Positions 4,754 to 25,300 of a stretch of DNA of 64,000 nucleotides are shown here, in pieces. Both the position numbers and the translations under genes were made by a program. The DNA comes from Diplonema papillatum (taxonomy: Eukaryota; Euglenozoa; Diplonemea; Diplonemida; Diplonemidae). The DNA lies in the NCBI GenBank assembly GCA_030068145.1, contig JAPJBO010000317.1, positions 1 through 64,000 on the forward strand, given 5' to 3'. The notes below the pieces were generated by a model. It was given only the letters and a program-made list of their open reading frames with translations, was not told the origin of the DNA and did no database searches. Every line of letters starts with the position of its first letter. The first letter of the stretch is position 1.

Positions 4754-5746
4754 ATGTTCTCTCGCGCTATGTTGCTGGCTGCATGCTTCGCCGTTGCGGC
4801 GGGGACGAGTTACAACCTGCAGTGCACCCCTGCCAGTGCGACGTGCGGCGGCAAGTGCTGCGCTGTTTCATGGAAGCTGGAGGGCACCGACGGATCGTTC
4901 TCGTGCTCTCAGGCGGGGCACAACACGTGCGGGCTGTGCGGACAGAGCAGTCTGCCAGCGTGCGACTTCACCGTGAAGAACAGCGGAGTGCCTGTGGCGA
5001 CGCTCGTTGACAGTAAGGGAGTCCCTGTCGCCGCCAAAGAGTCTGTCGGCGGAGCTGCTGGTGGCCCCCTTCTGCCAACGAGTCCTTCGAGCGGAGTGAC
5101 GCTGACGCTGGGTACTTACAACGGCATGAAGGGGTGGCTCGACATCCCGGCGGCGTCGTTCTCCGGGTTCACTGAGTTCCTGCTAGGGTTGACTGCGACG
5201 GTGCCGTCGTTCTACACGGAGACGGGGTTCACTGTTCAGTACTCGTGCGAGAAGACGGCGATCTTCGGAGCCCCCGACGGCTTCAAGGGCTGCGACATCT
5301 TCTTCTTCGTGTACAAGTGCCCGCCGTGCCAAAGACTGGACGGTGGCATCCACTCGCAGCTGATGGCAATGGACGAGCCGCAGTGGTACGCTGGCCAGTG
5401 CGGACCGACGTTCAAGCTGAACACGGACTTGGGAGTTGACCACGAGTTCGCTGTGTGGCAGGCGGAGATGAAGGACGGTACTGAAGTGGCTCTGAAGATG
5501 ACGAGCCCGATTGAGTTCATCTTCTGGGCGATGGTTGGTAAGAGCGTTGTGTGCGCTGCGAGGCTGACGGAGGACACTTGCAATGCAGCGTCTGACAACT
5601 GCGTGTGGCTCGACGAAGGTGTGTGCCGCCCGAGAGGCTGCGCGAAGCCGTCGCCGTACCAGGGAGCGGCTGTGCCGAGATGCCAAGTTTGCGTTGACGA
5701 CGAGGACGAGTTCATCCCGGAGGTTGTCATGAAGACCACCCTGTAG
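4754..5746 (+). CDS. Secreted cysteine-rich protein, array copy 3
   Basis: The protein is identical to copy 2 by translation, and the surrounding 1995-bp unit matches as well. The start choice follows the signal peptide as for copy 1. Confidence 0.85.
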   Translation: MFSRAMLLAACFAVAAGTSYNLQCTPASATCGGKCCAVSWKLEGTDGSFSCSQAGHNTCGLCGQSSLPACDFTVKNSGVPVATLVDSKGVPVAAKESVGGAAGGPLLPTSPSSGVTLTLGTYNGMKGWLDIPAASFSGFTEFLLGLTATVPSFYTETGFTVQYSCEKTAIFGAPDGFKGCDIFFFVYKCPPCQRLDGGIHSQLMAMDEPQWYAGQCGPTFKLNTDLGVDHEFAVWQAEMKDGTEVALKMTSPIEFIFWAMVGKSVVCAARLTEDTCNAASDNCVWLDEGVCRPRGCAKPSPYQGAAVPRCQVCVDDEDEFIPEVVMKTTL

Positions 5747-6748
5747 TCTAAAAAAAAGAAAAAGCGGATCAAAATCCAACTGTGTTAAGAAACAAACACA
5801 AACCTCTGTCGGTGCAGCATTTTCAGCAGCAGCAGATTGGTGCTGTTTACTGCCCGACGTTTCCACGAAAAAGAAAAGTAATATCAAACAAAAGAGACCG
5901 ACGTTTTCAGCTCTGAATTTGTGAGTGGGAGGCTCGTATCGCTGTCAAAGGGGGGTGCGACGAGGTTCGAGTGGGCACGTCTCGTTTTCTGCTGCTAGCC
6001 TTCACAACAACGGTGTCTCGAGAGAAGCGTGGCTTTGGCTCGCTTCTTTTTTTGCGCCACATTGTCAGGAGACTTGTTGTGTCCGCCCGCTCTCGCCCAG
6101 CCGGCAGCCTTTTGCGTGCTTCCCGCGTCACTTTCTCGCTGCTGTCATGTCGTTAGTTTACCCTTCTGCTCCTCATTCTTCCCGTCGAAGTGACGGCCAG
6201 TTCTCGTTGCGCGAGAAGGCCGCTGTTGCTGACGGTGATTCCCCGATGATCCTGCTTTCGCCACCGCGATCGCAGCGCCGTAACCCTTTGAAGTGCCAAA
6301 GAAGATCATCGTCTTGTTCGTGGTCCGCCACCTCAGACGAGGCGATCACCGCCTGATCCGCTACTCCTTCATGCCCCCTTCTCTCTCCGTCCCACCTCTC
6401 AGTTCAACGAATCGTACCAGCTTTGACCTTTCTCCACATTCTAAAGAAGTCTATGCGTGTGTGCTGGCGAGCGGGTATTGAGACGTGGCAAGAAAACGCA
6501 AAGGAGACTGTTTGGTCGAATTATCCCACGCTGAGTATGGTCCACTACAGTGGTTTCCACACCGACTGGTATTGTCAGAGCTCAAAGTTACGAAGCGTCA
6601 AAGGAAGGATCTGGTGCGGTCCTGACTGGATACAGAAAGAACGCTTGCTGCGCCACGGTTTGCGCTGCCAGGCGTGGCACATGGGGTGCAAAGGATTTCG
6701 TCAGGTAATATTTACAAACACAAAAGAACTCTCACGAACGTGACAACT

Positions 6749-7741
6749 ATGTTCTCTCGCGCTATGTTGCTGGCTGCATGCTTCGCCGTTGCGGCGGGGA
6801 CGAGTTACAACCTGCAGTGCACCCCTGCCAGTGCGACGTGCGGCGGCAAGTGCTGCGCTGTTTCATGGAAGCTGGAGGGCACCGACGGATCGTTCTCGTG
6901 CTCTCAGGCGGGGCACAACACGTGCGGGCTGTGCGGACAGAGCAGTCTGCCAGCGTGCGACTTCACCGTGAAGAACAGCGGAGTGCCTGTGGCGACGCTC
7001 GTTGACAGTAAGGGAGTCCCTGTCGCCGCCAAAGAGTCTGTCGGCGGAGCTGCTGGTGGCCCCCTTCTGCCAACGAGTCCTTCGAGCGGAGTGACGCTGA
7101 CGCTGGGTACTTACAACGGCATGAAGGGGTGGCTCGACATCCCGGCGGCGTCGTTCTCCGGGTTCACTGAGTTCCTGCTAGGGTTGACTGCGACGGTGCC
7201 GTCGTTCTACACGGAGACGGGGTTCACTGTTCAGTACTCGTGCGAGAAGACGGCGATCTTCGGAGCCCCCGACGGCTTCAAGGGCTGCGACATCTTCTTC
7301 TTCGTGTACAAGTGCCCGCCGTGCCAAAGACTGGACGGTGGCATCCACTCGCAGCTGATGGCAATGGACGAGCCGCAGTGGTACGCTGGCCAGTGCGGAC
7401 CGACGTTCAAGCTGAACACGGACTTGGGAGTTGACCACGAGTTCGCTGTGTGGCAGGCGGAGATGAAGGACGGTACTGAAGTGGCTCTGAAGATGACGAG
7501 CCCGATTGAGTTCATCTTCTGGGCGATGGTTGGTAAGAGCGTTGTGTGCGCTGCGAGGCTGACGGAGGACACTTGCAATGCAGCGTCTGACAACTGCGTG
7601 TGGCTCGACGAAGGTGTGTGCCGCCCGAGAGGCTGCGCGAAGCCGTCGCCGTACCAGGGAGCGGCTGTGCCGAGATGCCAAGTTTGCGTTGACGACGAGG
7701 ACGAGTTCATCCCGGAGGTTGTCATGAAGACCACCCTGTAG
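6749..7741 (+). CDS. Secreted cysteine-rich protein, array copy 4
   Basis: The translation is identical to copies 2, 3 and 5. No disabling change was seen. Confidence 0.85.
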   Translation: MFSRAMLLAACFAVAAGTSYNLQCTPASATCGGKCCAVSWKLEGTDGSFSCSQAGHNTCGLCGQSSLPACDFTVKNSGVPVATLVDSKGVPVAAKESVGGAAGGPLLPTSPSSGVTLTLGTYNGMKGWLDIPAASFSGFTEFLLGLTATVPSFYTETGFTVQYSCEKTAIFGAPDGFKGCDIFFFVYKCPPCQRLDGGIHSQLMAMDEPQWYAGQCGPTFKLNTDLGVDHEFAVWQAEMKDGTEVALKMTSPIEFIFWAMVGKSVVCAARLTEDTCNAASDNCVWLDEGVCRPRGCAKPSPYQGAAVPRCQVCVDDEDEFIPEVVMKTTL

Positions 7742-8743
7742 TCTAAAAAAAAGAAAAAGCGGATCAAAATCCAACTGTGTTAAGAAACAAACACAAACCT
7801 CTGTCGGTGCAGCATTTTCAGCAGCAGCAGATTGGTGCTGTTTACTGCCCGACGTTTCCACGAAAAAGAAAAGTAATATCAAACAAAAGAGACCGACGTT
7901 TTCAGCTCTGAATTTGTGAGTGGGAGGCTCGTATCGCTGTCAAAGGGGGGTGCGACGAGGTTCGAGTGGGCACGTCTCGTTTTCTGCTGCTAGCCTTCAC
8001 AACAACGGTGTCTCGAGAGAAGCGTGGCTTTGGCTCGCTTCTTTTTTTGCGCCACATTGTCAGGAGACTTGTTGTGTCCGCCCGCTCTCGCCCAGCCGGC
8101 AGCCTTTTGCGTGCTTCCCGCGTCACTTTCTCGCTGCTGTCATGTCGTTAGTTTACCCTTCTGCTCCTCATTCTTCCCGTCGAAGTGACGGCCAGTTCTC
8201 GTTGCGCGAGAAGGCCGCTGTTGCTGACGGTGATTCCCCGATGATCCTGCTTTCGCCACCGCGATCGCAGCGCCGTAACCCTTTGAAGTGCCAAAGAAGA
8301 TCATCGTCTTGTTCGTGGTCCGCCACCTCAGACGAGGCGATCACCGCCTGATCCGCTACTCCTTCATGCCCCCTTCTCTCTCCGTCCCACCTCTCAGTTC
8401 AACGAATCGTACCAGCTTTGACCTTTCTCCACATTCTAAAGAAGTCTATGCGTGTGTGCTGGCGAGCGGGTATTGAGACGTGGCAAGAAAACGCAAAGGA
8501 GACTGTTTGGTCGAATTATCCCACGCTGAGTATGGTCCACTACAGTGGTTTCCACACCGACTGGTATTGTCAGAGCTCAAAGTTACGAAGCGTCAAAGGA
8601 AGGATCTGGTGCGGTCCTGACTGGATACAGAAAGAACGCTTGCTGCGCCACGGTTTGCGCTGCCAGGCGTGGCACATGGGGTGCAAAGGATTTCGTCAGG
8701 TAATATTTACAAACACAAAAGAACTCTCACGAACGTGACAACT

Positions 8744-9736
8744 ATGTTCTCTCGCGCTATGTTGCTGGCTGCATGCTTCGCCGTTGCGGCGGGGACGAGT
8801 TACAACCTGCAGTGCACCCCTGCCAGTGCGACGTGCGGCGGCAAGTGCTGCGCTGTTTCATGGAAGCTGGAGGGCACCGACGGATCGTTCTCGTGCTCTC
8901 AGGCGGGGCACAACACGTGCGGGCTGTGCGGACAGAGCAGTCTGCCAGCGTGCGACTTCACCGTGAAGAACAGCGGAGTGCCTGTGGCGACGCTCGTTGA
9001 CAGTAAGGGAGTCCCTGTCGCCGCCAAAGAGTCTGTCGGCGGAGCTGCTGGTGGCCCCCTTCTGCCAACGAGTCCTTCGAGCGGAGTGACGCTGACGCTG
9101 GGTACTTACAACGGCATGAAGGGGTGGCTCGACATCCCGGCGGCGTCGTTCTCCGGGTTCACTGAGTTCCTGCTAGGGTTGACTGCGACGGTGCCGTCGT
9201 TCTACACGGAGACGGGGTTCACTGTTCAGTACTCGTGCGAGAAGACGGCGATCTTCGGAGCCCCCGACGGCTTCAAGGGCTGCGACATCTTCTTCTTCGT
9301 GTACAAGTGCCCGCCGTGCCAAAGACTGGACGGTGGCATCCACTCGCAGCTGATGGCAATGGACGAGCCGCAGTGGTACGCTGGCCAGTGCGGACCGACG
9401 TTCAAGCTGAACACGGACTTGGGAGTTGACCACGAGTTCGCTGTGTGGCAGGCGGAGATGAAGGACGGTACTGAAGTGGCTCTGAAGATGACGAGCCCGA
9501 TTGAGTTCATCTTCTGGGCGATGGTTGGTAAGAGCGTTGTGTGCGCTGCGAGGCTGACGGAGGACACTTGCAATGCAGCGTCTGACAACTGCGTGTGGCT
9601 CGACGAAGGTGTGTGCCGCCCGAGAGGCTGCGCGAAGCCGTCGCCGTACCAGGGAGCGGCTGTGCCGAGATGCCAAGTTTGCGTTGACGACGAGGACGAG
9701 TTCATCCCGGAGGTTGTCATGAAGACCACCCTGTAG
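8744..9736 (+). CDS. Secreted cysteine-rich protein, array copy 5 (last intact)
   Basis: This is the last complete copy, identical in translation to copies 2-4. The spacer after it is still array-like up to 10402, after which the next copy is degenerate. Confidence 0.85.
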   Translation: MFSRAMLLAACFAVAAGTSYNLQCTPASATCGGKCCAVSWKLEGTDGSFSCSQAGHNTCGLCGQSSLPACDFTVKNSGVPVATLVDSKGVPVAAKESVGGAAGGPLLPTSPSSGVTLTLGTYNGMKGWLDIPAASFSGFTEFLLGLTATVPSFYTETGFTVQYSCEKTAIFGAPDGFKGCDIFFFVYKCPPCQRLDGGIHSQLMAMDEPQWYAGQCGPTFKLNTDLGVDHEFAVWQAEMKDGTEVALKMTSPIEFIFWAMVGKSVVCAARLTEDTCNAASDNCVWLDEGVCRPRGCAKPSPYQGAAVPRCQVCVDDEDEFIPEVVMKTTL

Positions 9737-10402
9737 TCTAAAAAAAAGAAAAAGCGGATCAAAATCCAACTGTGTTAAGAAACAAACACAAACCTCTGTC
9801 GGTGCAGCATTTTCAGCAGCAGCAGATTGGTGCTGTTTACTGCCCGACGTTTCCACGAAAAAGAAAAGTAATATCAAACAAAAGAGACCGACGTTTTCAG
9901 CTCTGAATTTGTGAGTGGGAGGCTCGTATCGCTGTCAAAGGGGGGTGCGACGAGGTTCGAGTGGGCACGTCTCGTTTTCTGCTGCTAGCCTTCACAACAA
10001 CGGTGTCTCGAGAGAAGCGTGGCTTTGGCTCGCTTCTTTTTTTGCGCCACATTGTCAGGAGACTTGTTGTGTCCGCCCGCTCTCGCCCAGCCGGCAGCCT
10101 TTTGCGTGCTTCCCGCGTCACTTTCTCGCTGCTGTCATGTCGTTAGTTTACCCTTCTGCTCCTCATTCTTCCCGTCGAAGTGACGGCCAGTTCTCGTTGC
10201 GCGAGAAGGCCGCTGTTGCTGACGGTGATTCCCCGATGATCCTGCTTTCGCCACCGCGATCGCAGCGCCGTAACCCTTTGAAGTGCCAAAGAAGATCATC
10301 GTCTTGTTCGTGGTCCGCCACCTCAGACGAGGCGATCACCGCCTGATCCGCTACTCCTTCATGCCCCCTTCTCTCTCCGTCCCACCTCTCAGTTCAACGA
10401 AT
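9737..10402 (+). other. Last intact array spacer segment
   Basis: This segment matches the other spacers through the ctctcag pyrimidine/AG element (AG at 10391-10392) and the following ttcaacgaat, then diverges abruptly. It holds no supported gene. Confidence 0.7.
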
Positions 10403-11030
10403 GTTACCAGCAGTGTGTTTTTCCCATCTTTTTGAGAGGTCTGGTGGTTGATGGCGAGCGGGTGTTGAGGCGTTGGTTGAAGGTGGAACTGTTACTGTTT
10501 GCTCGGTACCAAACACTATGCAGATGAGAAGTTTCAGGGGTGTCGCCTGAAAACTACGAAGGACTTTTCGAGATGCAGAAGTCGAACAGCAGGAAAACGG
10601 TGAAATTGCCGTTCTAGGTTTCAGGAAATTTTTGCATGACTCCCATCTGTCTGCGCAATTTTGGCAGAGGTGTGCGAGAGAGAAGACGAAATCAACCCTA
10701 TGCGAAGAACATCGACTGCATCGATCCACGCAAAGGCTGGGTCGGGTTGTAGACATCCCGCAACAGGACCTTAACGTCAAGTTTGTGACGAAGGGTGGAA
10801 GTCTGTAAGAGCTGGTATGAGTGTCGCTTTTCCCGAACGGTGCCTTTGGGTAGGCGACCAGAATACGGGGCGCGGTAGTAGCATTTTACTATCAAAAACG
10901 ATGCTTTTCGAACGTAACATCAGTATTCTTTTGCGCACTGTTGCTAGCTGCATGGTTCGCCGTCGGCGGCGGGGACCAGTTTCAACCTGCAGTGCGCTGT
11001 TTGCTATGAACTTCGGAACAACAACAGATG
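10403..11030 (+). pseudogene. Decayed sixth array copy
   Basis: After the sharp loss of identity at 10402 the sequence keeps patchy, collinear similarity to the array unit. The segment near 10453 (tggcgagcgggtgttgag) matches the array's tggcgagcgggtattgag. The block at about 10909-11000 aligns with the gene start, including the signal-peptide region and caacctgcagtgc. In this alignment the initiating ATG has become GTA. About 33 bp after the cagtgc are deleted, and similarity fades soon after the gctgttt segment. No frame spans the original coding region. The relic shows the array once extended further right, and that homogenisation has not reached it. Confidence 0.75.
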
Positions 11031-14873: not shown

Positions 14874-14879
14874 GTATTT
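14874..14879 (+). promoter_or_regulatory. Candidate 5' splice site (phase 0)
   Basis: GTATTT directly follows the last coiled-coil codon. Beyond it the frame becomes T-rich and stops within ten codons, which fits an exon-intron border. Confidence 0.55.
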
Positions 14880-15029
14880 TCCTTTTTTTATTGTCAGTAC
14901 TAAAGTACTTTTGGGAATATTGACACGAAGCGTGGCTCCTCGCTGGAAGGCTTGTGCAGGTGAACTGATGGGGAAAACACTGTGACAACAGCCTCCAGGC
15001 GTCCTCCCCATTCACCCCCACCTGCGGAA

Positions 15030-15035
15030 AATAAA
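15030..15035 (+). terminator. Possible intronic polyadenylation signal (another at 15468-15473)
   Basis: AATAAA lies 127 bp after the TAA that ends the unspliced exon 1 frame. A second AATAAA is at 15468-15473. They could produce a short isoform of about 1,056 residues. Both are simple hexamers and may be chance. Confidence 0.3.
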
Positions 15036-15386
15036 AAGCACACACTCGCCTAGTGTTGGATTCTCTGTCAAGTTTTACTTCTTCTCCGGTTTCTTTTCTC
15101 CAACGCCAACAGCCAGTCCAACAGCCAGCCAGTCACCAAGCGGGAAACCGGACACGAAGAAGACACGGTCCGACCAGGATGTTGATAAGACATCTCAAGG
15201 TAACGCTCAGCCACTGGAATGTTCCCACTGTGGGGCAACCGAAAAACTGAGCGGCGGATCTTTCGCCAACGCACGGGGTGTCGAAATCCACGAGCGCACC
15301 TGTGCAAAAAACCCCGCATGCCACCAAAGTACCTAGCCCAGTCCTATCTGGAGCGCTGGCCCGGCGAGCTACGAGGGCACAAACCG

Positions 15387-15433
15387 TTTCCCCCTTTTTT
15401 TTCCCCCGTCTCCTTTCCATTCTTGCATTTCAG
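15387..15433 (+). promoter_or_regulatory. Strong polypyrimidine-CAG acceptor-like site inside the intron
   Basis: About 40 nearly uninterrupted pyrimidines end in gcatttcag (AG at 15432-15433). This is the best-looking 3' splice site in the region. Joined to exon 1 in phase 0 it would add only about a dozen codons (ending QSKRK) before TAA at 15470-15472, next to AATAAA at 15468. It may be an alternative terminal exon, or a splice acceptor for a transcript leading into the element. Confidence 0.45.
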
Positions 15434-15530
15434 GCCTGCATGCCCCATCAAAAGCAATCGAAAAGAAAATAAACGAGCGTTCTACCACCTCGCGCGGTGT
15501 CACGGGATGTTTGGCAGCCGCTGCTAAACA

Positions 15531-15565
15531 TGGTTCATGTACTTAAAAGAACTCAATGCTAAACA
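15531..15565 (+). repeat. 35-bp direct repeat, left copy (probable target-site duplication)
   Basis: The sequence runs from tggttcatg to tgctaaaca and is identical to 21853-21887. It brackets the retrotransposon. It contains the ATG at 15556 that opens the small ORF1. The 9-mer tgctaaaca also occurs just before it at 15522-15530. Confidence 0.8.
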
Positions 15566-15795
15566 CGGCAGCGCAGAAGAAGAGGAAGACGCCGGAGCCG
15601 GCAGGGGACGGGCCGGCTCCCGCGGGAAGCGACGCCCGGATGGACGGTGCAGAGCACGTCCACGCCTTCGGGACCCCCACGAAGGCCGCAGCTGGCTACA
15701 CCTGCGGCGTGTGTAGGAAGAAGAAGGCGAAGGGTCAGCTTCGCTTGGAATGCGAGGGCTGCGACGTCAGCGCGTGCAAGACTTGCACGAGCTGA
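15556..15795 (+). CDS. Retrotransposon ORF1: small zinc-finger protein
   Basis: The product is 79 residues from ATG 15556 to TGA 15793-15795. A basic KKRK near the start could be a nuclear signal. The C-terminal half has C-x2-C-x12-C-x2-C-x4-C-x2-C with an HVH pair upstream, a spacing like ZZ or DC1-type treble-clef fingers. I cannot decide which. Such a module could bind nucleic acid or protein. The first ATG lies within the flanking direct repeat. The next in-frame ATG, 15640, keeps the whole zinc motif and may be the element's own start. The following frame continues without another stop into the AlkB domain, so this may be the N-terminal part of a readthrough polyprotein. Confidence 0.65.
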   Translation: MLNTAAQKKRKTPEPAGDGPAPAGSDARMDGAEHVHAFGTPTKAAAGYTCGVCRKKKAKGQLRLECEGCDVSACKTCTS

Positions 15796-15798
15796 CTA
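15793..15798 (+). promoter_or_regulatory. Candidate stop-codon readthrough site TGA-CTA
   Basis: TGA ends ORF1 and is followed directly by CTA. UGA-CUA is an established leaky context in alphaviruses and some animal mRNAs. The same frame is open from 15796 to 21816. No ATG occurs in it until 16456, which lies past the catalytic HxD of the AlkB domain. TGA is not used as a sense codon in the 13,885-codon host exon, so a reassigned code is unlikely. Confidence 0.6.
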
Positions 15799-18700
15799 CC
15801 TCCACAGCCCGCACCCGGCGCCAGTGGCCCCGCCAGCCCAGTACGGGTTGCCCTGCGCGCGAGGCCCTCGTTCGGGCTGCCGAGTCCTAGCACCCCTGCT
15901 AGGCAGTTTGATCACGCAGAGACGGAAAAAGAGAATTCCTGCTCCTCCTCTTTTCCCCTCCCTCTCTCTCACGGCGCGCCTGGCCTCAATCGCCCGGGAG
16001 TGATACCCCGAGGGCCCGGTTTTGCGCACAAACAATCCCCCTACAATAGCCAGTGTGCCCGGCCAACTTGCAACGAGGGCCCCCCCGCCAGGGTGGAGGG
16101 ACCCATCCCGGGGCTTAGTTTCCAGGCGATCCCTCGGGATCTTCTGGATAGACTGAGCCGAGCACCCGAGCTCAACCCGGAAGCCCCATGGGGAAGGCTG
16201 GGGGGTGGACACAGCAGGGAAACCCAGCAGTGGGGGCACGCCTATCGACTAGGTGAACCCCCGATCAGACTGGAACGGGGTATCCCCGAGGGGCCCCTGA
16301 AAGAAGCGGCGGATCTCATACGTGACCGCCTTGGGTGGGAACCGGACCAGTTGCTGGCCAACTGGTACCGGAGGGGAGTGGGGATCAACCCCCACAGAGA
16401 CCAGAGAGAACTGGGTCCGAGGGTAGCGACCATATCGCTCTTGAGCGACACGGTCATGGAATGGGAGAGGGGGAGCCGGAGACTGAGAACCCCTCTGCCG
16501 GTCGGCACACTGTGCCACATGGAAGGCGAGGCCAGGAACCTGTGGACGCACGGGATTCGTCCCGATGATGTCGCACGCGACCGGGTCTCGCTGACCTACA
16601 GGGCCGTGCGCGAGGCCGCCTCCCAAAGTTTGCAAGGCCGGGACACCCCGCAAGAAGCTCCCATACCCCCCCCGCCCAGCCCTCAGGCATCCACTGCACC
16701 CCCCCAACATCAGTCCAGCCCCGCGCCACGGACACTTTTGCTTCATCACCAAAGAACTCTACAATCAATCAAAGAATCAGCAAGACAGCGGCTGATAACC
16801 GCGGGGGACGTCGAACAAAACCCTGGTCCCGGCCGCGCGGAGATGAGGTTCGCGACGTTAAACGTAACCAACCTACTACAGTATCTCCCAGCGGCCGACG
16901 CGGTGGAAGCGGATCTTCTCTGCTGCCAGGAGGTGACACTCCTTCCGTGCAAACGGGTGCAGGCAGAGGAATACCTGCGGAAATGGTGCTGCCACTGGGG
17001 TCTGCCACCACCCGGAAGACTCTGTAGGAACTCCGGTAGTCGCTCGACGATGAACGCCGCGAACGGAGGGCTCTCCACTCTAGTACTGAGACCGATACCG
17101 GCGTACGATACGATGACGGCGCTCGCGCACGCAGCAGTACGGTCCCCGGACCGAGTGAGCCATACGGTAGTAGCAACAGGGGCCGGCAACACGTTCGTGC
17201 ACGTGTTCAATGTCTACTGCCCTTCCGGAAACGGGAGGGCGGAGAGCGAGGAGCGTGAGGACATGCTGGAGAAGATCCTCTTCGCAGCGGCGGATAGCCT
17301 CGGTGACGTCCCCATAATGGTGATGGGTGACCTGAACACGGAAGAAGACCGGTCCCCTGTACTGCGGAAGGCACTAAGGAATGGATGGTCCGACGCAGCG
17401 GAACTGCACCATGCGCGTACCGGTGACACACCACCACCACCGACCTTTACCAACGCCCGGACATCGGGCACGAGGATCGACCGCATACTCCTCAACCGAA
17501 TAACGACGGGAGCTTTCCGCCAATGCGTCACCACCGCGGTGAACGTGCCGGGACACCGGCTCGTGACAATGACCCTGGACATTGCGGCGCTGCGCCAAAT
17601 CGTGTGGCGATTTAAAGTACCGCGGGAAATCTCTACGGAGGGGGGACCCAAGTGGGGCCTCTCGGACACAGAAGCTTACAGGGAAGCCGTACAGAGACTG
17701 GCCAACTCCGATTTCGCAGAACGGCTGGCAGCACAGCGAGTGGAAGAGGCCTGGCTCGAGTGGTCACGAGTCAGTGAGCAGTACTTGCAGGATGCCTTCG
17801 GAATCCCTGCGGAAGAAAGGGGAAGAAGTACCGGCCGGGGGATAAAGACGTCACCTAAAAGAGTCTGCATCACGGCAAGCACTGCGAGCGACGGGTCGGG
17901 GGCGGCGAACAGCAGACAGCTACGGCTCCGGAAGGCCATCCACAGGATGGAACGCATCTGCAGCTACCTTGCGCAACGGCGCGGGCCGGAGGCAGTTCCG
18001 CATGAGGTATCCCGTTGCTGGCAGAACAGCAGGCGGCTGGCACAGGCGTGCATGAAAGATGGCCAAGGGACAGAAGGATTCCCGGATCATGAGGAGGCGA
18101 AGCAGCTTCTCACGGCATTGCGGGAAGAGACGAGCAGGCTCGGAAAGGAAGGATCGGCGGCCAGGTTTACGAAATACCGAGACAAGCTGAACGAGAGGGC
18201 CGATGCGAGCAGACGATGTCTGACAACCATCTGCGCCGGACGCGCTGAGCCGTCGGGGGTGTTGCGAAAGGGGGCGGGAGTGACTGCAAATATTGACGAG
18301 ATGGACGAGGTGCTGAACACTGCGTGGGACCCTATCCTGCGTAAGTACAAGGACGGGCCAGAGCCGGAGTACGAGCCGTTTCGGGATCGGTTCCGGGATC
18401 ACATCGGCCCACATATGATGGAAGCCGGAACAATCACGGGGGAGGAGCTGCGAATTCTGCTGAGGAAGAAGCCGAAGAAAAGCGCGTCAGGGGTGGATGG
18501 CTGGCGTATGGCTGAACTGCGGGAGTTGCCGCTCCCCCTGCTGAATGCACTTGCAGACGTCATGAACCTGGTCGAAGCAACTGGAGACTGGCCGGCAAGC
18601 ATGACAACTGCGCTGGTGTCGATGGTGCCGAAGGATGAGAGTCAAGACCCGCTGCACACAAGACCGATAACCGTCACATCCGCCGTGTACCGCTTATGGG

Positions 18701-21700
18701 CCTGCCGCAGGCTGGCGGACATAGTTCTGTGGCAAGAGGAATGGATCGAAGAAGGACAGAAAGGCTTTCGACCGGGTCACCGGATCGAGGACGTCTTGAT
18801 GGAAATTGGGCTCGAGATGGAGGACGCCTTGTTAGACGGGGAGCCGCTCTACGGTGTGGCGCTGGACTTCCGGAAATGCTTCGACATGGTCCCGCGAGAG
18901 ATAGTACTGCGCTTAGCCGAGGACTTAGGATTGCACAATCGGGTTCTCAAGCCGCTGAGGGCTATCTACAGACTGCTCGCGAGACGCTTCAAGCTACCAT
19001 TAGGGGTGGGCAGGGAGTTCAGTGTGACCAACGGTATCCTTCAAGGGTGCCCTGTATCCGTCATACTCATCAATGCCCTGCTGTCGGTAGTGATGAAAGC
19101 GGTCAAGAAAGAAGCGGAGGGTGTGAGTCCAAAGTCATACGCGGACGACGCCACACTGCTGTCCAGGCTGTCGGAGGCCGCCCTGCAAAAGGGAGTGGAC
19201 GTAGTAGACGAGTTCTGCACACTCACCGGGATGGAGCTAAACCTCCAGAAGACGGTCGCGTTCTCGACGAGACGTAGGCATCAGTCGACTCTCAAACTCC
19301 GCAGCGTGGATGCGCTGCTGCGGTTTAGCAAATCCGTCAAGTGCCTCGGGGTCCTAGTCTCGACGGCGAAGAATAGGACGGAAAGGTCCGACTCGGAGAG
19401 GGTGGAGAAGGCGGCTGCCCTGGCGGAAGGCCTCCGCCATGCGCCGTTCCGGTACGAAAAGCGGGTCCGGATTGTGCAGTCGAATGTGCTACCGGCGGCG
19501 CTGTCAGGCTGCTCTTTCGCGCCGGTATCGAAGGTGGCGATGAAACGGCTGACGACGTCGGTGATGGGACTGATCTGGGGTGGATCCAACCCGAAGCGCG
19601 CGAGGGAGATGGTCCTAAACTTTCAGGAGAAGGGCCACCTGACGGATCCCGGTACATGCCTAGCATATAGGGTGACGACAGCGTTTTACGCGGCGTGCGA
19701 GAGGTTGCCACGACTGCTGCCTCTGATGGAGAGCATCCGGGGAAGATACGCCGAGGGGGACCTACCCCTGGGGCCAGTTGGACTGGCGATGAGGAGCATG
19801 GAGGAGTGTGGACACGTATGGGGACCCGGGCCCCTGTCTCGCACGCTGAGGAATGGAGCAACGTATGACCCGTTAACCTCGGCACCTTCGAAGAGGGGAC
19901 ATGAAGTTAGGGCGGACTTGAGGGCGAAGACGTGGTCCCGACTGGTGGCGAGGCGGCCGGGATTTGAGGGCATACAGAGAGCCGACCTGGAGCGGACGAA
20001 CTCCTTCTGGAGGATGCGTGAATGTCCCGCGCACACCGCGAGGCTTATACGTGTAGCGTTGGCGGGGGGGGTGAACACGGCTGAGTACACGTCGCGGATG
20101 AGGCAGGCCGGAGCTGAGCCGCAGGCGCCCAGCTGCAAGCACTGTGGAAGCGGCGACACCGAGGACGAGAAACACGTATTCTGGGACTGCGGAGCGTACT
20201 CGCACGTACGGCGACGAGAGGCACATGCCGAGCTGATGGCAGCCAACCGGGCCGACTGGCCCAGATGCACGCTGGAACACGGTGTGGTAGTACCCGAGAA
20301 TGCCCAATTCTCGAGGCGGCTCCAGGAGATGATGGCTGAAATCCTTGCGGAACGGGCTGGGCTCGAAGCACGTGCCTGGGTGGCCAGGAACCCCACGACC
20401 CCCTGGTCGAGAGCGAATGCGATGCCTGCCGAGAAATTTGACCACCCCTTCGCGCGGATTGCCCCGGCATGGACGTGGGAGCGGAACAAGACCTGGGGAC
20501 TACCGACGTTTTATGCGTTGGTAGCGTGGCTGTCGGACATGCAATGGACCGAGAACGGGCAGGCGTCAATGCTGGAGCTTGCGATCGACTTTGAGCTCTT
20601 CTCGGGCCTCAGCATGCCGCTGCACGGGAATGCGCCGAAGGGGGTGAGAGAACGGGGAAACGTCCTGCGCTGCATGATGAGCGCGTTGGACAAGCTGGCG
20701 GCACAGCAAGGGCTGGGAAGCTGCATGAGAGGAGAGAGGGTGTGCCCGACGACGTCGCTGTCGTTCATGGGCATCACGGGGATATCGGGTATACGGCCCA
20801 GGCCACGCTTTCGCGAGGCACACACGGGGACGATACTTGAGGAACAAGTGAAAGGAAGCGATGTAGGGACGCAGTGCCCGACGTACCCTGACTGGACGAT
20901 CGGGAGAGCGGCGAGGTGGGCCCTGCCTGCCCCACCACAACTGCACCCAGACCCCGTGCATATGCCGGGTGTCGGTATAGAGAAGGCACTCGTCACGTGC
21001 GCGACCCATCACAAAGGGAAGTGTGAGGCGTGCAGAGCACTCGTCCGAAGGGACGTTCCCACGGTAGAGATGTGCTGCCGGCACCATCACCACGCGAACG
21101 ATGGGCAGCCGATCGCGGTGTGCACAGAGCACAGCACGACGAAGTGCGGCGAGTGCAAGACGGCGGCGGCGTGTTGCCGCAGCGGGCATCATGCCTGCCG
21201 CACGCATGGCAGAGGAACCTGCCAAGAGTGCAAAAGGCTCCCTACGCTGACGCAGAGGCGACCGGCGGCATGTTGCAGCCGCGGCCACCACCAGTCCAAC
21301 AAGCCGAACGTCGAGTCAACCCCCGGACGCAACAAGAAGAAGAGGCCCTCCTCACCCACCCAGGTGGGTGTACAGCGGGAAACGCCAGTAGGAAAGCGAG
21401 CGGCGCGAGCGGCGCGAGCGCCGCTCGCGGCAACTAAAAAGGAGACGGCGACGACCGGACGGGCGACCAAGAGGCCGCCACCAACGCCAGGAACCAGCGA
21501 ACGACCAGCGCTGAAGAAGAGGGTGCTCGGCACCCCGAAGGAAGGCCTGATCGCCGGCCGCAAGCGGAAGAAGACGAAGGCGACCACCCCCGACTCAGGG
21601 GTGCATCGAAGGAAGAAGAAGGTACCGAGGGCAAGCAGCTCTCAGAAACGACCGGGGACCACGGGCACACCAATGCCCTCGAAAGTGAAAAACGGACACA

Positions 21701-21819
21701 CGTGCCCGCCCTCGTACTCGCCGACTCAGTCTCTGGAATCGCAAGAAAGCCAAACCCCGCTAGCTCCACAAATGCTCGACCTTGACGACGCAATGGCAGG
21801 TGACGACGTCATCCGATAA
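15796..21819 (+). CDS. Retrotransposon polyprotein: AlkB-2A-APE endonuclease-RT
   Basis: The frame has 2,007 sense codons from the TGA to TAA at 21817-21819. Residues below are numbered from the GTG at 16000. In order it has an AlkB-like 2OG/Fe(II) dioxygenase (about 33-205), a proline-rich linker, a 2A peptide ending NPG/P (276/277) and an APE endonuclease (282-530). An undefined linker follows, then an RT (about 815-1120, YADD 1047-1050), a CCHC knuckle (1379-1397), triple Cys/His modules (1667-1764) and a Lys/Arg-rich tail. The 2A would release AlkB from the enzyme moiety during translation. No in-frame ATG precedes residue 153, so expression of AlkB needs readthrough from ORF1 or initiation at a non-AUG codon such as the GTG at 16000. 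All catalytic signatures seen are intact, so the copy may be active. It presumably nicks target DNA and primes reverse transcription there. Confidence 0.88.
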   Translation, partial: LPPQPAPGASGPASPVRVALRARPSFGLPSPSTPARQFDHAETEKENSCSSSFPLPLSHGAPGLNRPGVIPRGPGFAHKQSPYNSQCARPTCNEGPPARVEGPIPGLSFQAIPRDLLDRLSRAPELNPEAPWGRLGGGHSRETQQWGHAYRLGEPPIRLERGIPEGPLKEAADLIRDRLGWEPDQLLANWYRRGVGINPHRDQRELGPRVATISLLSDTVMEWERGSRRLRTPLPVGTLCHMEGEARNLWTHGIRPDDVARDRVSLTYRAVREAASQSLQGRDTPQEAPIPPPPSPQASTAPPQHQSSPAPRTLLLHHQRTLQSIKESARQRLITAGDVEQNPGPGRAEMRFATLNVTNLLQYLPAADAVEADLLCCQEVTLLPCKRVQAEEYLRKWCCHWGLPPPGRLCRNSGSRSTMNAANGGLSTLVLRPIPAYDTMTALAHAAVRSPDRVSHTVVATGAGNTFVHVFNVYCPSGNGRAESEEREDMLEKILFAAADSLGDVPIMVMGDLNTEEDRSPVLRKALRNGWSDAAELHHARTGDTPPPPTFTNARTSGTRIDRILLNRITTGAFRQCVTTAVNVPGHRLVTMTLDIAALRQIVWRFKVPREISTEGGPKWGLSDTEAYREAVQRLANSDFAERLAAQRVEEAWLEWSRVSEQYLQDAFGIPAEERGRSTGRGIKTSPKRVCITASTASDGSGAANSRQLRLRKAIHRMERICSYLAQRRGPEAVPHEVSRCWQNSRRLAQACMKDGQGTEGFPDHEEAKQLLTALREETSRLGKEGSAARFTKYRDKLNERADASRRCLTTICAGRAEPSGVLRKGAGVTANIDEMDEVLNTAWDPILRKYKDGPEPEYEPFRDRFRDHIGPHMMEAGTITGEELRILLRKKPKKSASGVDGWRMAELRELPLPLLNALADVMNLVEATGDWPASMTTALVSMVPKDESQDPLHTRPITVTSAVYRLWACRRLADIVLWQEEWIEEGQKGFRPGHRIEDVLMEIGLEMEDALLDGEPLYGVALDFRKCFDMVPREIVLRLAEDLGLHNRVLKPLRAIYRLLARRFKLPLGVGREFSVTNGILQGCPVSVILINALLSVVMKAVKKEAEGVSPKSYADDATLLSRLSEAALQKGVDVVDEFCTLTGMELNLQKTVAFSTRRRHQSTLKLRSVDALLRFSKSVKCLGVLVSTAKNRTERSDSERVEKAAALAEGLRHAPFRYEKRVRIVQSNVLPAALSGCSFAPVSKVAMKRLTTSVMGLIWGGSNPKRAREMVLNFQEKGHLTDPGTCLAYRVTTAFYAACERLPRLLPLMESIRGRYAEGDLPLGPVGLAMRSMEECGHVWGPGPLSRTLRNGATYDPLTSAPSKRGHEVRADLRAKTWSRLVARRPGFEGIQRADLERTNSFWRMRECPAHTARLIRVALAGGVNTAEYTSRMRQAGAEPQAPSCKHCGSGDTEDEKHVFWDCGAYSHVRRREAHAELMAANRADWPRCTLEHGVVVPENAQFSRRLQEMMAEILAERAGLEARAWVARNPTTPWSRANAMPAEKFDHPFARIAPAWTWERNKTWGLPTFYALVAWLSDMQWTENGQASMLELAIDFELFSGLSMPLHGNAPKGVRERGNVLRCMMSALDKLAAQQGLGSCMRGERVCPTTSLSFMGITGISGIRPRPRFREAHTGTILEEQVKGSDVGTQCPTYPDWTIGRAARWALPAPPQLHPDPVHMPGVGIEKALVTCATHHKGKCEACRALVRRDVPTVEMCCRHHHHANDGQPIAVCTEHSTTKCGECKTAAACCRSGHHACRTHGRGTCQECKRLPTLTQRRPAACCSRGHHQSNKPNVESTPGRNKKKRPSSPTQVGVQRETPVGKRAARAARAPLAATKKETATTGRATKRPPPTPGTSERPALKKRVLGTPKEGLIAGRKRKKTKATTPDSGVHRRKKKVPRASSSQKRPGTTGTPMPSKVKNGHTCPPSYSPTQSLESQESQTPLAPQMLDLDDAMAGDDVIR
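16096..16614 (+). other. AlkB-like 2OG/Fe(II) dioxygenase domain
   Basis: The iron triad is H132-x-D134 (GINPHRD) with H184 (NLWTHGI). The 2OG-binding arginine pair R195 and R201 sits in RVSLTYR, with the six-residue spacing of AlkB. NWYRRGVGI before the HxD and PVGTLCHMEGEARNLWTH before the distal His match AlkB family landmarks. AlkB enzymes remove alkyl groups from nucleic-acid bases by oxidation, and similar domains occur in some plant RNA viruses. A role in repairing or demethylating the element RNA or cDNA is inference. Confidence 0.85.
16798..16830 (+). other. 2A ribosome-skipping peptide
   Basis: TAGDVEQNPGP contains the full D-[VI]-E-x-N-P-G-P consensus. Skipping between G276 and P277 would separate the ORF1/AlkB part from the endonuclease-RT part. 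2A at this place is known in trypanosome L1Tc. Confidence 0.93.
16843..17589 (+). other. APE-type endonuclease domain
   Basis: Signature positions are the Asn in ATLNVTNL, catalytic E311 in CCQEV, GDLN at 443-446, RIDRILLN with D494, and GHR with H519 near the end. These match the apurinic-like endonucleases of non-LTR elements that nick the target strand. Confidence 0.9.
18442..19359 (+). other. Reverse transcriptase domain
   Basis: Motifs in order are SASGVDGWR, VSMVPKDESQ, RPITVTSAVYRL, GFRPGHRIEDV, ALDFRKCFDMVP with D956, NGILQGCPVS, SYADDATLL with D1049/D1050, and KCLGVLV. This is the standard non-LTR RT order, and all catalytic aspartates are present. Confidence 0.95.
20134..20190 (+). 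other. CCHC zinc knuckle after the RT
   Basis: C1379-x2-C1382-x9-H1392-x4-C1397 is a typical C-terminal knuckle of APE-class non-LTR elements, likely for nucleic-acid binding. Confidence 0.85.
20998..21291 (+). other. Three tandem Cys/His modules, unfamiliar zinc-binding repeat
   Basis: Three copies follow the pattern C-x2-H-x4-C-x2-C, a spacer of 5-15 residues, CC, then HH two or three residues later. Copies start at residues 1667, about 1709 and about 1734. The spacing is too regular to be chance. I do not recognise a named domain. Metal binding is inferred from Cys/His content. Confidence 0.75.
21292..21819 (+). other. Basic low-complexity tail of the polyprotein
   Basis: Lys, Arg, Pro, Ser and Thr dominate, with clusters such as NKKKRP, GRKRKKTK and HRRKKK that could act as nuclear signals or bind nucleic acid. 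The last residues are acidic (DLDDAMAGDD). Confidence 0.6.
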
Positions 21820-21852
21820 CCTGACTTTCAAGGCAGTGCATGCTAATCCATG

Positions 21853-21887
21853 TGGTTCATGTACTTAAAAGAACTCAATGCTAAACA
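21853..21887 (+). repeat. 35-bp direct repeat, right copy
   Basis: This is an exact match to 15531-15565. It is preceded by tgctaatccatg, which partly resembles the tgctaaaca before the left copy, so microhomology may have guided insertion. Confidence 0.8.
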
Positions 21888-21904
21888 AACATAACGTGGG
21901 CGGC

Positions 21905-21959
21905 GCCGAAGCTTTACCAGCTTCGGCTGACACCATTTGCGCACTTAACCATGGTTAAG
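21905..21959. repeat. Hairpin and perfect palindrome next to the insertion
   Basis: A perfect 9-bp stem with a 5-nt loop is at 21905-21927 (gccgaagct/agcttcggc). A 16-bp perfect palindrome, cttaaccatggttaag, is at 21944-21959. Their role is unknown. Confidence 0.6.
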
Positions 21960-22337
21960 AAGACAACTGAAAGCATAGACACAAAGATAGCCCAAAGCAT
22001 CTGCAGAATAACACGAAAAGCCTCTAGGCAAAAACCCGTTTTCACATCTCTTCCAGCGAGCACCCGTGGATACGATATTCCCTCACAATCCTTCTCCAAA
22101 TTTACCTGTTTACAAATGAAATTGCTTGCAAATTTCTTTCTCGGCCAAAACCGAACCATTCTCCTTTCACGCATCGGAAAGCTCAAGTCTGAAACGCGAC
22201 TCGCATGGAACCGTCTACAGATGCACACCTTTTCCTATGCGGTTGTATTTCCATGAGAGAACACTTTCGACGAGGGTCTCTCGGAGACCTTAAAACGTCG
22301 GATTTTTCAAAAGCGAAGTTCCTGAGGAGAAACACAC

Positions 22338-22343
22338 AAACAG
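22338..22343 (+). promoter_or_regulatory. Candidate 3' splice site of the giant gene
   Basis: aaacag precedes the in-frame codon GAG at 22344. The same frame has TGA at 22323, so coding must start after that. The pyrimidine tract is weak (only ttttt near 22301), so this choice rests mainly on the frame and on motif continuity. Confidence 0.5.
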
Positions 22344-25300
22344 GAGCTGCAAGCCGACCTGGAAGACGAAGCGCAGGCGCGCTTGCTCGAGGATGCAGAG
22401 CGGGACGCCACCGCAACCCGCAAAAGCGCGAGGCCGACGCCCGCGCCGCTGCCGGCGGCCGCGGGGCTGGCGATCGCGAGAGCCACGGCCCCGCTCCCGG
22501 GGGAGCAGCGCGCGCAGAAGGCGAGCGACCCCGCCCGGGAACGGGAGGTCATGCAGGTCCAGATCGACGACCTCCAAGAGCAGCTAGTGGACGCCCAGGC
22601 GCGCGGCGACGAGCTGGCCGGCGAGCTCGAGGAAGCCCTGGCGGATGCCCCGCGCCTCGCGCGATCGCCGCCGGCCCAGCCGGCCGCCGCAGCCCTGGGG
22701 CAAGATGGCGGCTCCGCCGCGGAGGAGTTCTTCCGCGCGGAGCGTGAAGCGATGAAGCGGCGCATCGAGGTGCTTGAAAGCCGGCTCGCCGGGGTCCCGG
22801 CGATGGAGATGCAGATCGATCATCTGCAGGAGCAGCTGATCGACGCGCGGGCCGACCGTGACGACACGCCGACCGAACACATGGGGGAGCCACCCGCCGA
22901 CAGATCCTTCGCGCCCGGAGAGGTTGCCCAGCTCCTGGCTGACCGCGAGGCGATGGAGGTGCAGATCGAGCACCTCCAGGAGCAGCTGATCGACGCGCGA
23001 GCCGACCGTGACGAGACGCTTAACCCGGGCAAGGCTCGGCGGCAGCCCAGCTCCAACGGCTCCATCGCGGCGGAGATCCCGCGCGCACCGTACCTGGCCC
23101 AGTGCACTCCGCCGGAGCATACGCTGCTGCACGACGACGACGCCGGGTTCGAACCGGCGGAGCCCGCGTCGGGTATGAAGCGCTCGCTCCGGTATGCCGC
23201 CCCCCGGGAGCCCCGCGACAGCGTGACGCCCGTCGCGTGTGCGTACCCGCAGGATCCCGGGCGGGAGCCGCGGTACGCCGGGGAGCCCGGCGGCGGGCAT
23301 CTGCCGCTGACCGAGGTGACCATCCTCCGGCTCGATCTCGCCAACGCGCTGACGCAGCGCGACGCCCTCCAGCGGCAGGTCGACGGCCTCACGCAGGAGC
23401 TCTCCGTCACGACCACCCGCAAGCACGACCTAGCCGCCAAGCGGGCGAGAACCGAGGGCGCCGACGACGCCGACGGCGAGCGGCAGCGCCTCCGAGCGGA
23501 CCTCCAACGGCTCAGTTCCGAGCACGAGGACATCCTCGCTGTGCACGACACCTTCGCGGGGCAGGTGAAGGCACTCCGGTGTGAGGTTGCCGCCGTGCAA
23601 GCAGAGCGGGACGCGTTGCTTCGCAACATCGACGAGCTGCAATCCAGCATCGACGCTGGGAAGGCGGACGCTGAGGATCGCTTGGAGGCTCAGCGAGTCG
23701 CGAACATGGCGCGCATCGAAGAGCTCTTGTCCGACTCCGCCGCTGCGTACGAGCAGGAGATCGCCTCCTTGCGCGCTGCGTCCGACGCCAAAGCGCTCGC
23801 CATCGAAACCCAGTTCGCGGCCCTGCTCGCCGAGCGGAGCGAAGGGCTGCAGGAGAGGTTGCAGCGCCTGCGGCCCGGCGCCGGCGGCCCCGCCGCCGCC
23901 GACGACTGGGCGCTCGCCGTGCGGGAGGAGCGCGAGGAGCGCGAGGCCGACCGGTGGAGGCTCAAGAACGCGACGGCGGTCGCGGCGGCGCGCCAGAAAG
24001 CGGCAGAGGAGGCGGAGGCCCGCTGCGCCGCGCTCGCCGCCGATGCCGCCCGGCTGCAGGCCCGCCTGGCGGCCTCGGACGCCGCGGCGGCTTCCCTCGC
24101 CAGCCAGAACAAGAAACTCCTCCTCCAAGGCAACGTGAAGCAGCCCCGGAAACCCGCCTCGTCCGACCAAGCCACACAGCATTCACCTGCCCTCCAAACG
24201 CAAGCCGCAACCCCCGACTCTCCCCACCCGCCAACACAATCTGGCGAACGCAGTCCGACAACGCCCGAAAACGCGATGCTCCGGGCGAAGGTCGCGCCGT
24301 TGGAGGCGGCGTTGGCCGCGAAACCCGTCTTTTCCGATCAAGCCACGCAGCACTCACCGCCGCAGGCGGAACCTGCCCTCCAAACGCAAGACGCAACCCC
24401 CAATTCTCCCCCCCCGCCAACGCAATCCGGAGACCGCAGTCCGGCCACGCCCGAAAAAGCGATGCTCCGGGCGAAGGTCGCGTCGTTGGAGGCGGCGTTG
24501 GCCGCGAACCCCGCCCGAGCCCAAAACGCTGCCCCCGCCCTTTTCGACCCACTGCCGCACGGCGCCCTGCACGCCACCGGCGAAGATGTGGCGCTGCGCG
24601 CAAAGATCGCGGCGTTGGAAGCGGCCCTGGCGGCCGAAACAGCCGCGGTCGCTTCTCTGCGAGCGCAGCTGGACACCACCGTCGGCCGATACCACTCTGC
24701 GGCGGCCGAAATTGCGGAGCTGCAAGAGAAGGTCACGGCGTTGGAGTCCGCACTGGCCAAACCACCTGGAGTCTCTCCTCTCCAAGCGCACAGCGCAAGT
24801 CAAGCAAGAGGGCAATTCCCGGCTTCGAACGAAGCGAGAACAGAAGCATTGGAGGCAGGGTCCGCGCTTCAAGAGAAGCCGAGTATATCGATTGCTGAAT
24901 ACGCAGCAATGGTTGCAGCGTTGGAAGCCGAGTCCGCACGCAAGTCTGAAGCGTTGACAGCACTGCAAGAGAAGCTAAGTGCGCAAGACCCCCGTATTTC
25001 GAATGCTGCACAGGACGTAGGAATTGCAGCGTTGGAAGCCGAGTCCGCACGCAAGTCTGAAGCGTTGACAGCACTGCAAGAGAAGCTAAGTGCGCAAGAC
25101 CCCCGTATTTCGAATGCTGCACAGGACGTAGGAATTGCAGCGTTGGAAGCCGAGTCCGCACGCAAGTCTGAAGCGTTGACAGCACTGCAAGAGAAGCTAA
25201 GTTCGCAAGACCCCCGTATTTCGAATGCTGCACAGGACGTAAGAATTGCAGCCTTGGAAGCCGAGTCCGCACGCAAGTCTGAAGCGTTGACAGCACTTCA

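Follow-up and report, generated by a model that had tools for sequence, protein, structure and literature searches.

The window, that is, the whole 64,000-nucleotide stretch of Diplonema papillatum DNA analysed, contains an AlkB-type 2OG-Fe(II) dioxygenase domain within a non-LTR retrotransposon. An exact 35-bp target site duplication (TSD) surrounds AlkB, a 2A motif, an endonuclease (EN) and a reverse transcriptase (RT), which places AlkB inside the mobile element. The layout ORF1-UGA-CUN-(AlkB-2A-EN-RT) recurs in the sequences of several families, and a sister AlkB is found in Helitrons of the same genome. In the explanation that we regard as rather probable, AlkB would be a cis-acting, element-borne nucleic-acid demethylase delivered through an ORF1p-AlkB readthrough protein, with an equivalent in the sister AlkB of the Helitrons. 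The features of the element are summarized in Table 1.

Table 1. Features of the AlkB-bearing element and its surroundings (window positions; residues in ORF2 numbering)
Feature	Position	Strand	Remarks
Inferred intron of giant coiled-coil gene, hosting the element	14874..22343	+	7470 bp, GT...AG
Left and right TSD	15531-15565 = 21853-21887	+	35 bp direct repeat, exact
Non-LTR insertion, 5'-truncated copy	15566..21852	+	Between both TSD copies
ORF1 3' end, zinc-ribbon-like CxxC...CxxC...CxxC	15566..15792	+	Weak Pfam match: C1_2, E=0.0021, under cut-off
In-frame TGA stop (15793-15795), then CTA; proposed readthrough site	15793..15798	+	
ORF2 frame AlkB-2A-EN-RT	15796..21819	+	2007 codons plus stop
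AlkB-type 2OG-Fe(II) dioxygenase	16081..16635 (modelled); Pfam match 16327-16602	+	Pfam, phmmer, AlphaFold2, Foldseek
Stretch with catalytic H200, D202, H252, R263, R269	16393..16602	+	
2A motif DVEQNPGP, residues 338-345	16807..16830	+	
APE-type endonuclease, limits approximate	16840..17565	+	Pfam Exo_endo_phos, 2.1e-8
Reverse transcriptase (query stretch)	18463..19575	+	Pfam RVT_1, 1.8e-20

The identity of the AlkB domain was assessed by profile, sequence and structure comparisons, as the preliminary description had proposed. The Pfam profile 2OG-FeII_Oxy_2 (PF13532) matched ORF2 residues 178–269 with an E-value of 1.9e-11 and a score of 45.0 bits, over the cut-off of 31.2. A phmmer search of the PDB returned ALKBH8 (9e-7) and an AlkB-like protein of S. 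pombe (5yl6; 1.9e-5). The AlphaFold2 model of 185 residues, based on an alignment of 28 sequences, has a pLDDT of 88.9 and a pTM of 0.85, and its best Foldseek match in the PDB is ALKBH6 (3.7e-12, TM 0.75), followed by ALKBH5, ABH2 and ABH8. The predicted model and its PDB matches assign the domain to the AlkB fold, a double-stranded beta-helix. The signature previously read as H132, D134, H184 and R195/R201 has the same spacing as H200, D202, H252, R263 and R269, which form an HxD...H iron triad and an RxxxxxR arginine pair; these five columns are invariant in 8 aligned rows, and all LINE and Helitron copies inspected retain the catalytic residues. By sequence, the domain looks intact. A chance match was ruled out by the profile score, the phmmer matches, the predicted model with its PDB fold matches, and the occurrence of multiple copies. 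None of the outcomes named in the preliminary description as refuting it was seen: the profile matched, other copies exist, and the predicted fold resembles AlkB structures.

The remainder of ORF2 follows in the same frame, as the preliminary description had stated, with Exo_endo_phos at residues 359–568 and RVT_1 at residues 953–1186; the presence of EN and RT within one ORF is that of an APE-type non-LTR element. The nearest solved structure to EN-RT by sequence is LINE-1 ORF2p (PDB 8sxt and 8c8j; 3.4e-21), and an entry labelled R2 matched at 4.9e-14. Six EN motifs are present in all five copies inspected. The same five copies end the endonuclease in PGH instead of the canonical SDH, with the histidine kept and the aspartate replaced by glycine; the SDH end is a typical, not a defining, feature of APE endonucleases. 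The 2A motif D(V/I)EQNPGP, which conforms to the D(V/I)ExNPGP consensus, precedes EN in 8 of 8 aligned copies and should release AlkB, joined to ORF1p, from EN-RT. Passages of an earlier article describe this motif, also in non-LTR elements (PMC4981915). Since the 2A motif lies between them and a conserved UGA lies toward ORF1, AlkB probably forms no part of the EN-RT polypeptide. The earlier claim that AlkB is built into a non-LTR element is therefore upheld as regards its location within a TSD-bounded, APE-type element and needs revision as regards the polypeptide.

The window copy is 5'-truncated and starts within ORF1; longer relatives have about 8 kb in common. Both its TSD and its 5' truncation are hallmarks of APE-type non-LTR insertion; no poly(A) tail was seen before its right TSD. 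The TSD, the in-frame TGA and the ORF1 remnant upstream of it are observations beyond those of the preliminary description. The element appears to sit within an intron of a huge coiled-coil gene, with GT at 14874, AG at 22342-22343, phase 0, and a coding frame that picks up again afterwards. A 27-bp target core, found at 4059 places in the genome (control, 0), lies directly 3' of the element end in 13 of the 14 LINE copies read (the window copy, L031–L042 and L049), the L034 stretch ending before the core would be reached. Directly 5' of the element the core is present in nine of these 14 (the window copy, L031, L036, L037, L038, L040, L041, L042 and L049), and it is absent from this position in L032–L035 and L039. 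Rfam gave no match on the 64-kb window or on positions 14880–22400, target core included, and a scan of viral contigs with the whole ORF gave none.

The genome searched for further copies comprises 271,365,524 bp in 2910 contigs. With PF13532, all 150 scored places (250 candidates) matched, many of them in frames of 1900–2050 residues. With the AlkB of the window as query, again 150 of 150 scored places matched (303 candidates), at 86–100% identity and on many contigs, giving at least 150 LINE-type AlkB places. None of the 150 scored LINE-type places has a stop inside the AlkB domain, and 93 have frames of 1800 residues or more. A search with RT yielded 3536 candidates, of which the 110 scored were all given as 100% identical; among the matches listed, AlkB lies upstream in at least 44 of the 110. 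The other 66 RT copies, without AlkB upstream among the matches listed, comprise 57 with frames shorter than 1800 residues, read as 5' truncations, and nine with longer frames, in which AlkB may be partial, missing or outside the matches listed.

Twenty stretches were retrieved, representing 13 LINE copies (L031–L042 and L049), five Helitrons (L043–L047) and two other AlkB genes (L048 and L050). The LINE copies are 97–99.9% identical within families over about 8 kb, which indicates recent movement, and the L031, L037 and L041 families are 86–93% identical to each other over about 6 kb. The window copy shares 98.6% identity with L037 over 6 kb; along most of this length the identity is 98–100%, falling to 60% in the 300 bases at its start, a part that is more similar to L041 (79%). 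Judged from these comparisons, the LINE copies are mosaic, and the lineage is a recently active, target-biased, APE-type non-LTR lineage.

Selection was analysed with the Nei-Gojobori method, using L031 against L037, L041 and the window copy as the most diverged families. The dN/dS ratios of the AlkB core are 0.14, 0.16 and 0.14, respectively (dS 0.39–0.47), and in the same comparisons those of EN are 0.15–0.16, RT 0.03–0.07, the linker 0.57–0.60 and the N-terminal stretch 0.48–0.80. Closer pairs give higher ratios for the AlkB core (L037-L041, 0.21; window-L041, 0.24), and the closest pairs, with few changes, give ratios near 1 (window-L037, 0.98, or 1.17 for the whole domain; L035-L031, 0.94, or 0.55). 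By these ratios, AlkB is under purifying selection between families, constrained like the endonuclease and flanked by relaxed linkers. The constraint between diverged families and the lack of stops in the scored places bear out the earlier view of a real AlkB domain.

All 12 relatives that hold the ORF1-ORF2 junction (L031–L042; L049 is truncated after the junction and is not counted among them) contain an upstream frame of 460–666 residues with a cysteine-rich, zinc-ribbon-like end, followed by TGA, CTN and ORF2, so that ORF1 and ORF2 share one frame with a lone stop between them. The stop is followed by CTA in the window copy, by CTG in L031–L036 and L041–L042, and by CTC in L037–L040; UGA-CUA is confined to the window family, the other families having UGA-CUG or UGA-CUC. 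L040 has extra bases ahead of the stop. With exact flanks, TGA is kept at 45 of 45, 63 of 63 (window family) and 6 of 6 places in three families, 114 of 114 in total; the counts were the same whether the search pattern specified TGA or left the stop unspecified, copies with changed flanks were left out, and copies that are almost identical do not testify independently to the stop codon. The protein around the stop has diverged: within the 40 residues before it, 8–12 of 32–37 aligned positions are identical (23–32%) in five of six family pairs, the sixth, window-L041, having 24 of 40 (60%), and ORF1 protein identity between families is only 27–38%. Coding sequence is found on either side of the conserved in-frame stop, as expected of readthrough, with ORF2 under constraint and ORF1 dN/dS ratios of 0.17 (L031-L035) and 0.37 (window-L041, 75 codons), dS being near saturation between families. 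The retention of UGA in 114 of 114 places despite the diverged flanking protein suggests that programmed UGA readthrough joins ORF1 to the AlkB frame. Passages of PMC12233894 give UGA CUA G as a motif with high readthrough; the stop context in the window is UGA CUA C.

A general reassignment of UGA was rejected, since each of three full-length elements checked has one TGA in 2600-odd codons and TGA also ends two other frames, L043 and L048. An intron across the stop was likewise rejected, and splicing or editing around it is unlikely, because the genomic copies come from processed, trans-spliced RNA. There is perhaps a small chance that UGA is not read through and that ORF2 begins by non-AUG or internal initiation. 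Other LINEs use reinitiation, and an ATG occurs at ORF2 codon 32 in L035 and L036. Against such initiation, the first ATG of ORF2 comes late, at codon 221 in the window, past the HxD motif, and at codons 207–263 in 10 of the 12 relatives, and all 12 relatives have ORF1 and ORF2 in one frame with a single stop between.

A sequence ending in AAAAGCTACAGTTTCTGTACTTTATTG is present at the 5' ends of L033, L034, L039, L041 and L042, in the last two immediately following the target core. L032, L037, L038 and L040 carry at least the final 12 bases of this sequence, and it was not displayed by the 5' ends of L031, L035 and L036. A 33-mer of this sequence occurs 569 times in the genome and the complete 39-mer 300 times; on contig C1335 the 39-mer forms a tandem array with a spacing of mostly 1240 bp, as expected of spliced-leader RNA genes. 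We take the 39-mer to be the diplonemid spliced leader. A 39-bp leader in tandem arrays is reported for D. papillatum in passages of PMC10161547. The complete 39-mer lies 2.3–2.6 kb upstream of AlkB, on the same strand, in 19 of 125 AlkB-LINE places, and the 33-mer lies 2.4–2.8 kb upstream in 13 of 56 such places on contigs C1–C296. The leader at the element 5' ends indicates that these copies were made from trans-spliced RNA, from which we infer that the template RNA is trans-spliced mRNA.

Four of the Helitron stretches (L043, L046, L045 and L047) combine Helitron_like_N (5e-38 to 8.5e-38) with an N-terminal AlkB (3.3e-14 to 6.4e-17). The frames of L045 and L047 are longer than those of L043 and L046 and hold AlkB, Rep (Helitron_like_N, 6.5e-38 and 5.4e-38) and PIF1 helicase (5.1e-42 and 5.3e-42) in one protein, as is characteristic of Helitrons; L044 was assigned by its 99.5–99.95% match to L043 and L045. 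Between two Helitron families, represented by L018, whose AlkB places it in the L043 family, and L008, which is the L046 AlkB, AlkB has a dN of 0.16, a dS of 1.13 and a ratio of 0.15. The Rep-helicase parts of these families are about 97% identical, so the AlkB end has either been exchanged or diverged independently. In a tree of 25 genome-internal rows, the AlkBs of the Helitrons, the LINEs and the multicopy L015–L016 group together (88/86), and the same group is recovered at 100/100 against 21 bacterial or viral relatives (of 38 found) and five host AlkBs, in a tree with long branches and unsettled bootstrap values. A single AlkB lineage thus appears to be common to a retrotransposon and a DNA transposon. 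The nearest host-like AlkB genes, L015–L017, are themselves multicopy.

In the proposed mechanism, most ribosomes would halt at UGA and yield ORF1p, and a minority would read through and produce ORF1p-AlkB, which 2A would free from EN-RT; the likely products are ORF1p, a minority ORF1p-AlkB-2A readthrough protein and free EN-RT. AlkB would be carried by ORF1p into the element's own RNP, where it would take N-methyl groups off the element RNA and possibly also off single-stranded cDNA, thereby clearing host marks or lesions that impede reverse transcription. The sister AlkB, fused to the Helitron Rep-helicase, would act equivalently on Helitron nucleic acid. Action in cis is favoured because AlkB shares a reading frame with ORF1p in the LINE or with Rep-helicase in the Helitron, the expected holders of the element's own nucleic acid. 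For the LINE, RNA demethylation is the leading option, ahead of DNA marks and lesion repair. The sister AlkB fits the role in demethylation, repair or counter-methylation suggested in the preliminary description and would widen it to a DNA element. A more specific version concerns the leader. Since some places have the entire 39-nt leader, reverse transcription apparently extended to the bases next to the cap; the corresponding bases are hypermethylated in kinetoplastids (cap-4, including m6,6A), which should hinder reverse transcription. It is conceivable, at a rather low probability, that AlkB on ORF1p demethylates the cap and leader to allow full-length copies, with a single AlkB module moving between retrotransposon and Helitron as a common counter-methylation device.

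Three other accounts of AlkB function were weighed against cis demethylation. AlkB could serve counter-silencing at the DNA level, erasing a host mark (6mA, or 3mC from DNA methyltransferases) on new or chromosomal copies; this has a modest probability and is consistent with the presence of the same AlkB clade on Helitrons, which have no RNA intermediate, and with the DNA methyltransferase homologues, base-J pathway and RNAi components of the Diplonema genome mentioned in passages of PMC10161547, but in the LINE, AlkB continues the ORF1p frame and is split by 2A from the DNA-cleaving EN-RT. Pure lesion repair, which overlaps with the preferred explanation, would have AlkB clear polymerase-blocking adducts of the Watson-Crick face (m1A, m3C and m1G) from the element's RNA or DNA while single-stranded, host defence playing no part. 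It is given a similarly modest probability: it accords with classical AlkB chemistry, single-stranded nucleic acid is one substrate class covering both LINE and Helitron, and many copies seem 5'-truncated, but well-known LINEs do without AlkB. Still less likely, AlkB might have a role other than demethylation, binding nucleic acid or modifying protein, or be a passenger. Sequence cannot reveal the substrate, certain AlkB homologues act on different targets, ALKBH8 for instance on a modified tRNA uridine, and the closest pairs are without constraint on AlkB; arguing for catalysis are the catalytic residues in every printed copy, the low ratios of the AlkB core amid relaxed flanks on both sides, and the occurrence of AlkB on Helitrons as well. 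That a host AlkB gene lies beside an ordinary LINE, or was joined to one by an assembly error, has a negligible probability, and a host gene fusion or adjacent host AlkB is refuted by the location within exact TSDs and by the copies, at 150 of 150 scored places over many contigs and near-identical within families along their common length.

The occurrence of AlkB in a LINE and a Helitron of one genome points to selection for erasing nucleic-acid modification, and suggests that elements of both classes use the enzyme to shield or unmask the genetic material they consist of. The idea that hosts methylate bases to defend themselves against transposons becomes directly testable in an understudied lineage. 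Passages of the D. papillatum paper list about a dozen AlkB-type homologues, interpreted there as pointing to dynamic gene regulation (PMC10161547); the LINE-type AlkB places, at least 150 in number, may alter this reading. The leader at the 5' ends of copies and the combination of UGA with 2A offer new angles on LINE ORF2 expression.

Searches of PMC by title and the start of the abstract, with subscription papers and Repbase lying outside their range, turned up neither an AlkB-bearing LINE or Helitron nor a LINE in which UGA is read through, and a word search of the main text of a StopGo survey (PMC12846837) found no mention of AlkB or Diplonema. The L1Tc-type APE non-LTR elements, compared by description, have the 2A motif and the APE-type endonuclease in common with the present element, and AlkB is not mentioned for them in the relevant passages (PMC4981915). 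LINE-1, whose ORF2p is the nearest solved EN-RT by sequence, differs from the present element, which has a recurring target core, a long TSD, AlkB and 2A, and an ORF2 in the ORF1 frame. The DNMT-bearing retrotransposons of Symbiodinium and charophytes have likewise captured a nucleic-acid methylation enzyme; according to PMC5890265, theirs is a writer, a cytosine methyltransferase, in other hosts, whereas AlkB is a putative eraser. The AlkB-bearing plant viruses of the Alphaflexiviridae, Betaflexiviridae and Closteroviridae are also parasitic replicons with their own AlkB, which demethylates RNA in vitro; they are RNA viruses, likened here by their description in PMC9289625. The same paper describes a Phalaenopsis Ty3/Gypsy element that, like the present one, is a mobile retroelement whose AlkB belongs to PF13532; this orchid protein binds RNA, removes m6A in vitro and is close to known RNA demethylases, and its ORF is expressed apart from Gag-Pol in a 25 kb LTR element (PMC9289625). 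In contrast, the Diplonema element is a non-LTR retrotransposon with AlkB between ORF1 and EN-RT, bounded by UGA and 2A, and Helitrons carry AlkB too. AlkB capture by an LTR retroelement and by RNA viruses is therefore already in print; the present case concerns a LINE and a rolling-circle DNA transposon that appear to share one AlkB clade, and adds the UGA-CUN between ORF1 and AlkB, the 2A layout, the leader at the 5' ends and the sister AlkB in Helitrons.

AlkB domains also occur on Helitrons in this genome. Five Helitron stretches (L043–L047), whose AlkB ends are the loci L019–L021, L008 and L009, carry the domain at the N-terminus in one frame. Two of the Helitron families are ~97% identical in Rep-helicase, yet their AlkB end has diverged. 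Three further loci (L011, L018 and L022) have the same AlkB as these Helitrons, although no Helitron context was seen around them. The AlkBs closest to those of the transposable elements belong to a multicopy gene (L015, L016 and L017; 93–96% identical), which may be a gene family of the host or may represent another, third mobile element. At another AlkB locus, L004 on contig C232, a ubiquitin-like domain lies N-terminal in the AlkB frame (ubiquitin, 3.5e-9).

The 27-bp core of the LINE target, taken from the target-site duplications, occurs 4059 times genome-wide (control, 0), and a single orientation predominates within a contig (87 of 99 tallied). Several LINE copies are arranged head-to-tail, each behind the 3' end of another copy. 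The ORF1–ORF2 junction of the window family was found in four copies on contig C1063 and five on contig C1128, where the copies are clustered.

Genomic copies of the LINE (L033, L034, L039, L041 and L042) have the spliced leader fixed at their 5' ends, and the sequence that follows it differs among these copies (different splice acceptors or variants). Between families (5' halves of L031, L037, L041 and the window copy), ORF1 looks exchanged or fast-evolving, because its protein identity is 27–38%, whereas the DNA identity of ORF2 is 86–93%.

The remaining features of the window are listed in the table. The tandem array had no match in Rfam. The short frame had no match in Pfam and is perhaps a remnant of another element.

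Coordinates of features in the window
Feature	Positions	Strand	Description
Tandem array	1–10473		Period 1995 bp, copies ~99% identical
Coiled-coil coding stretch	11484–64000	+	Gene-like, many tandem repeats
Short frame	14986–15333		Possible zinc finger (CSHCG...H...C), a short distance upstream of LINE insertion
Target-site duplications	15531–15565, 21853–21887		35 bp, flanking LINE copy
APE endonuclease end	17548–17559		Terminal PGH

The APE endonuclease of the LINE terminates in PGH in all five of the copies examined; the usual end of APE endonucleases is SDH.
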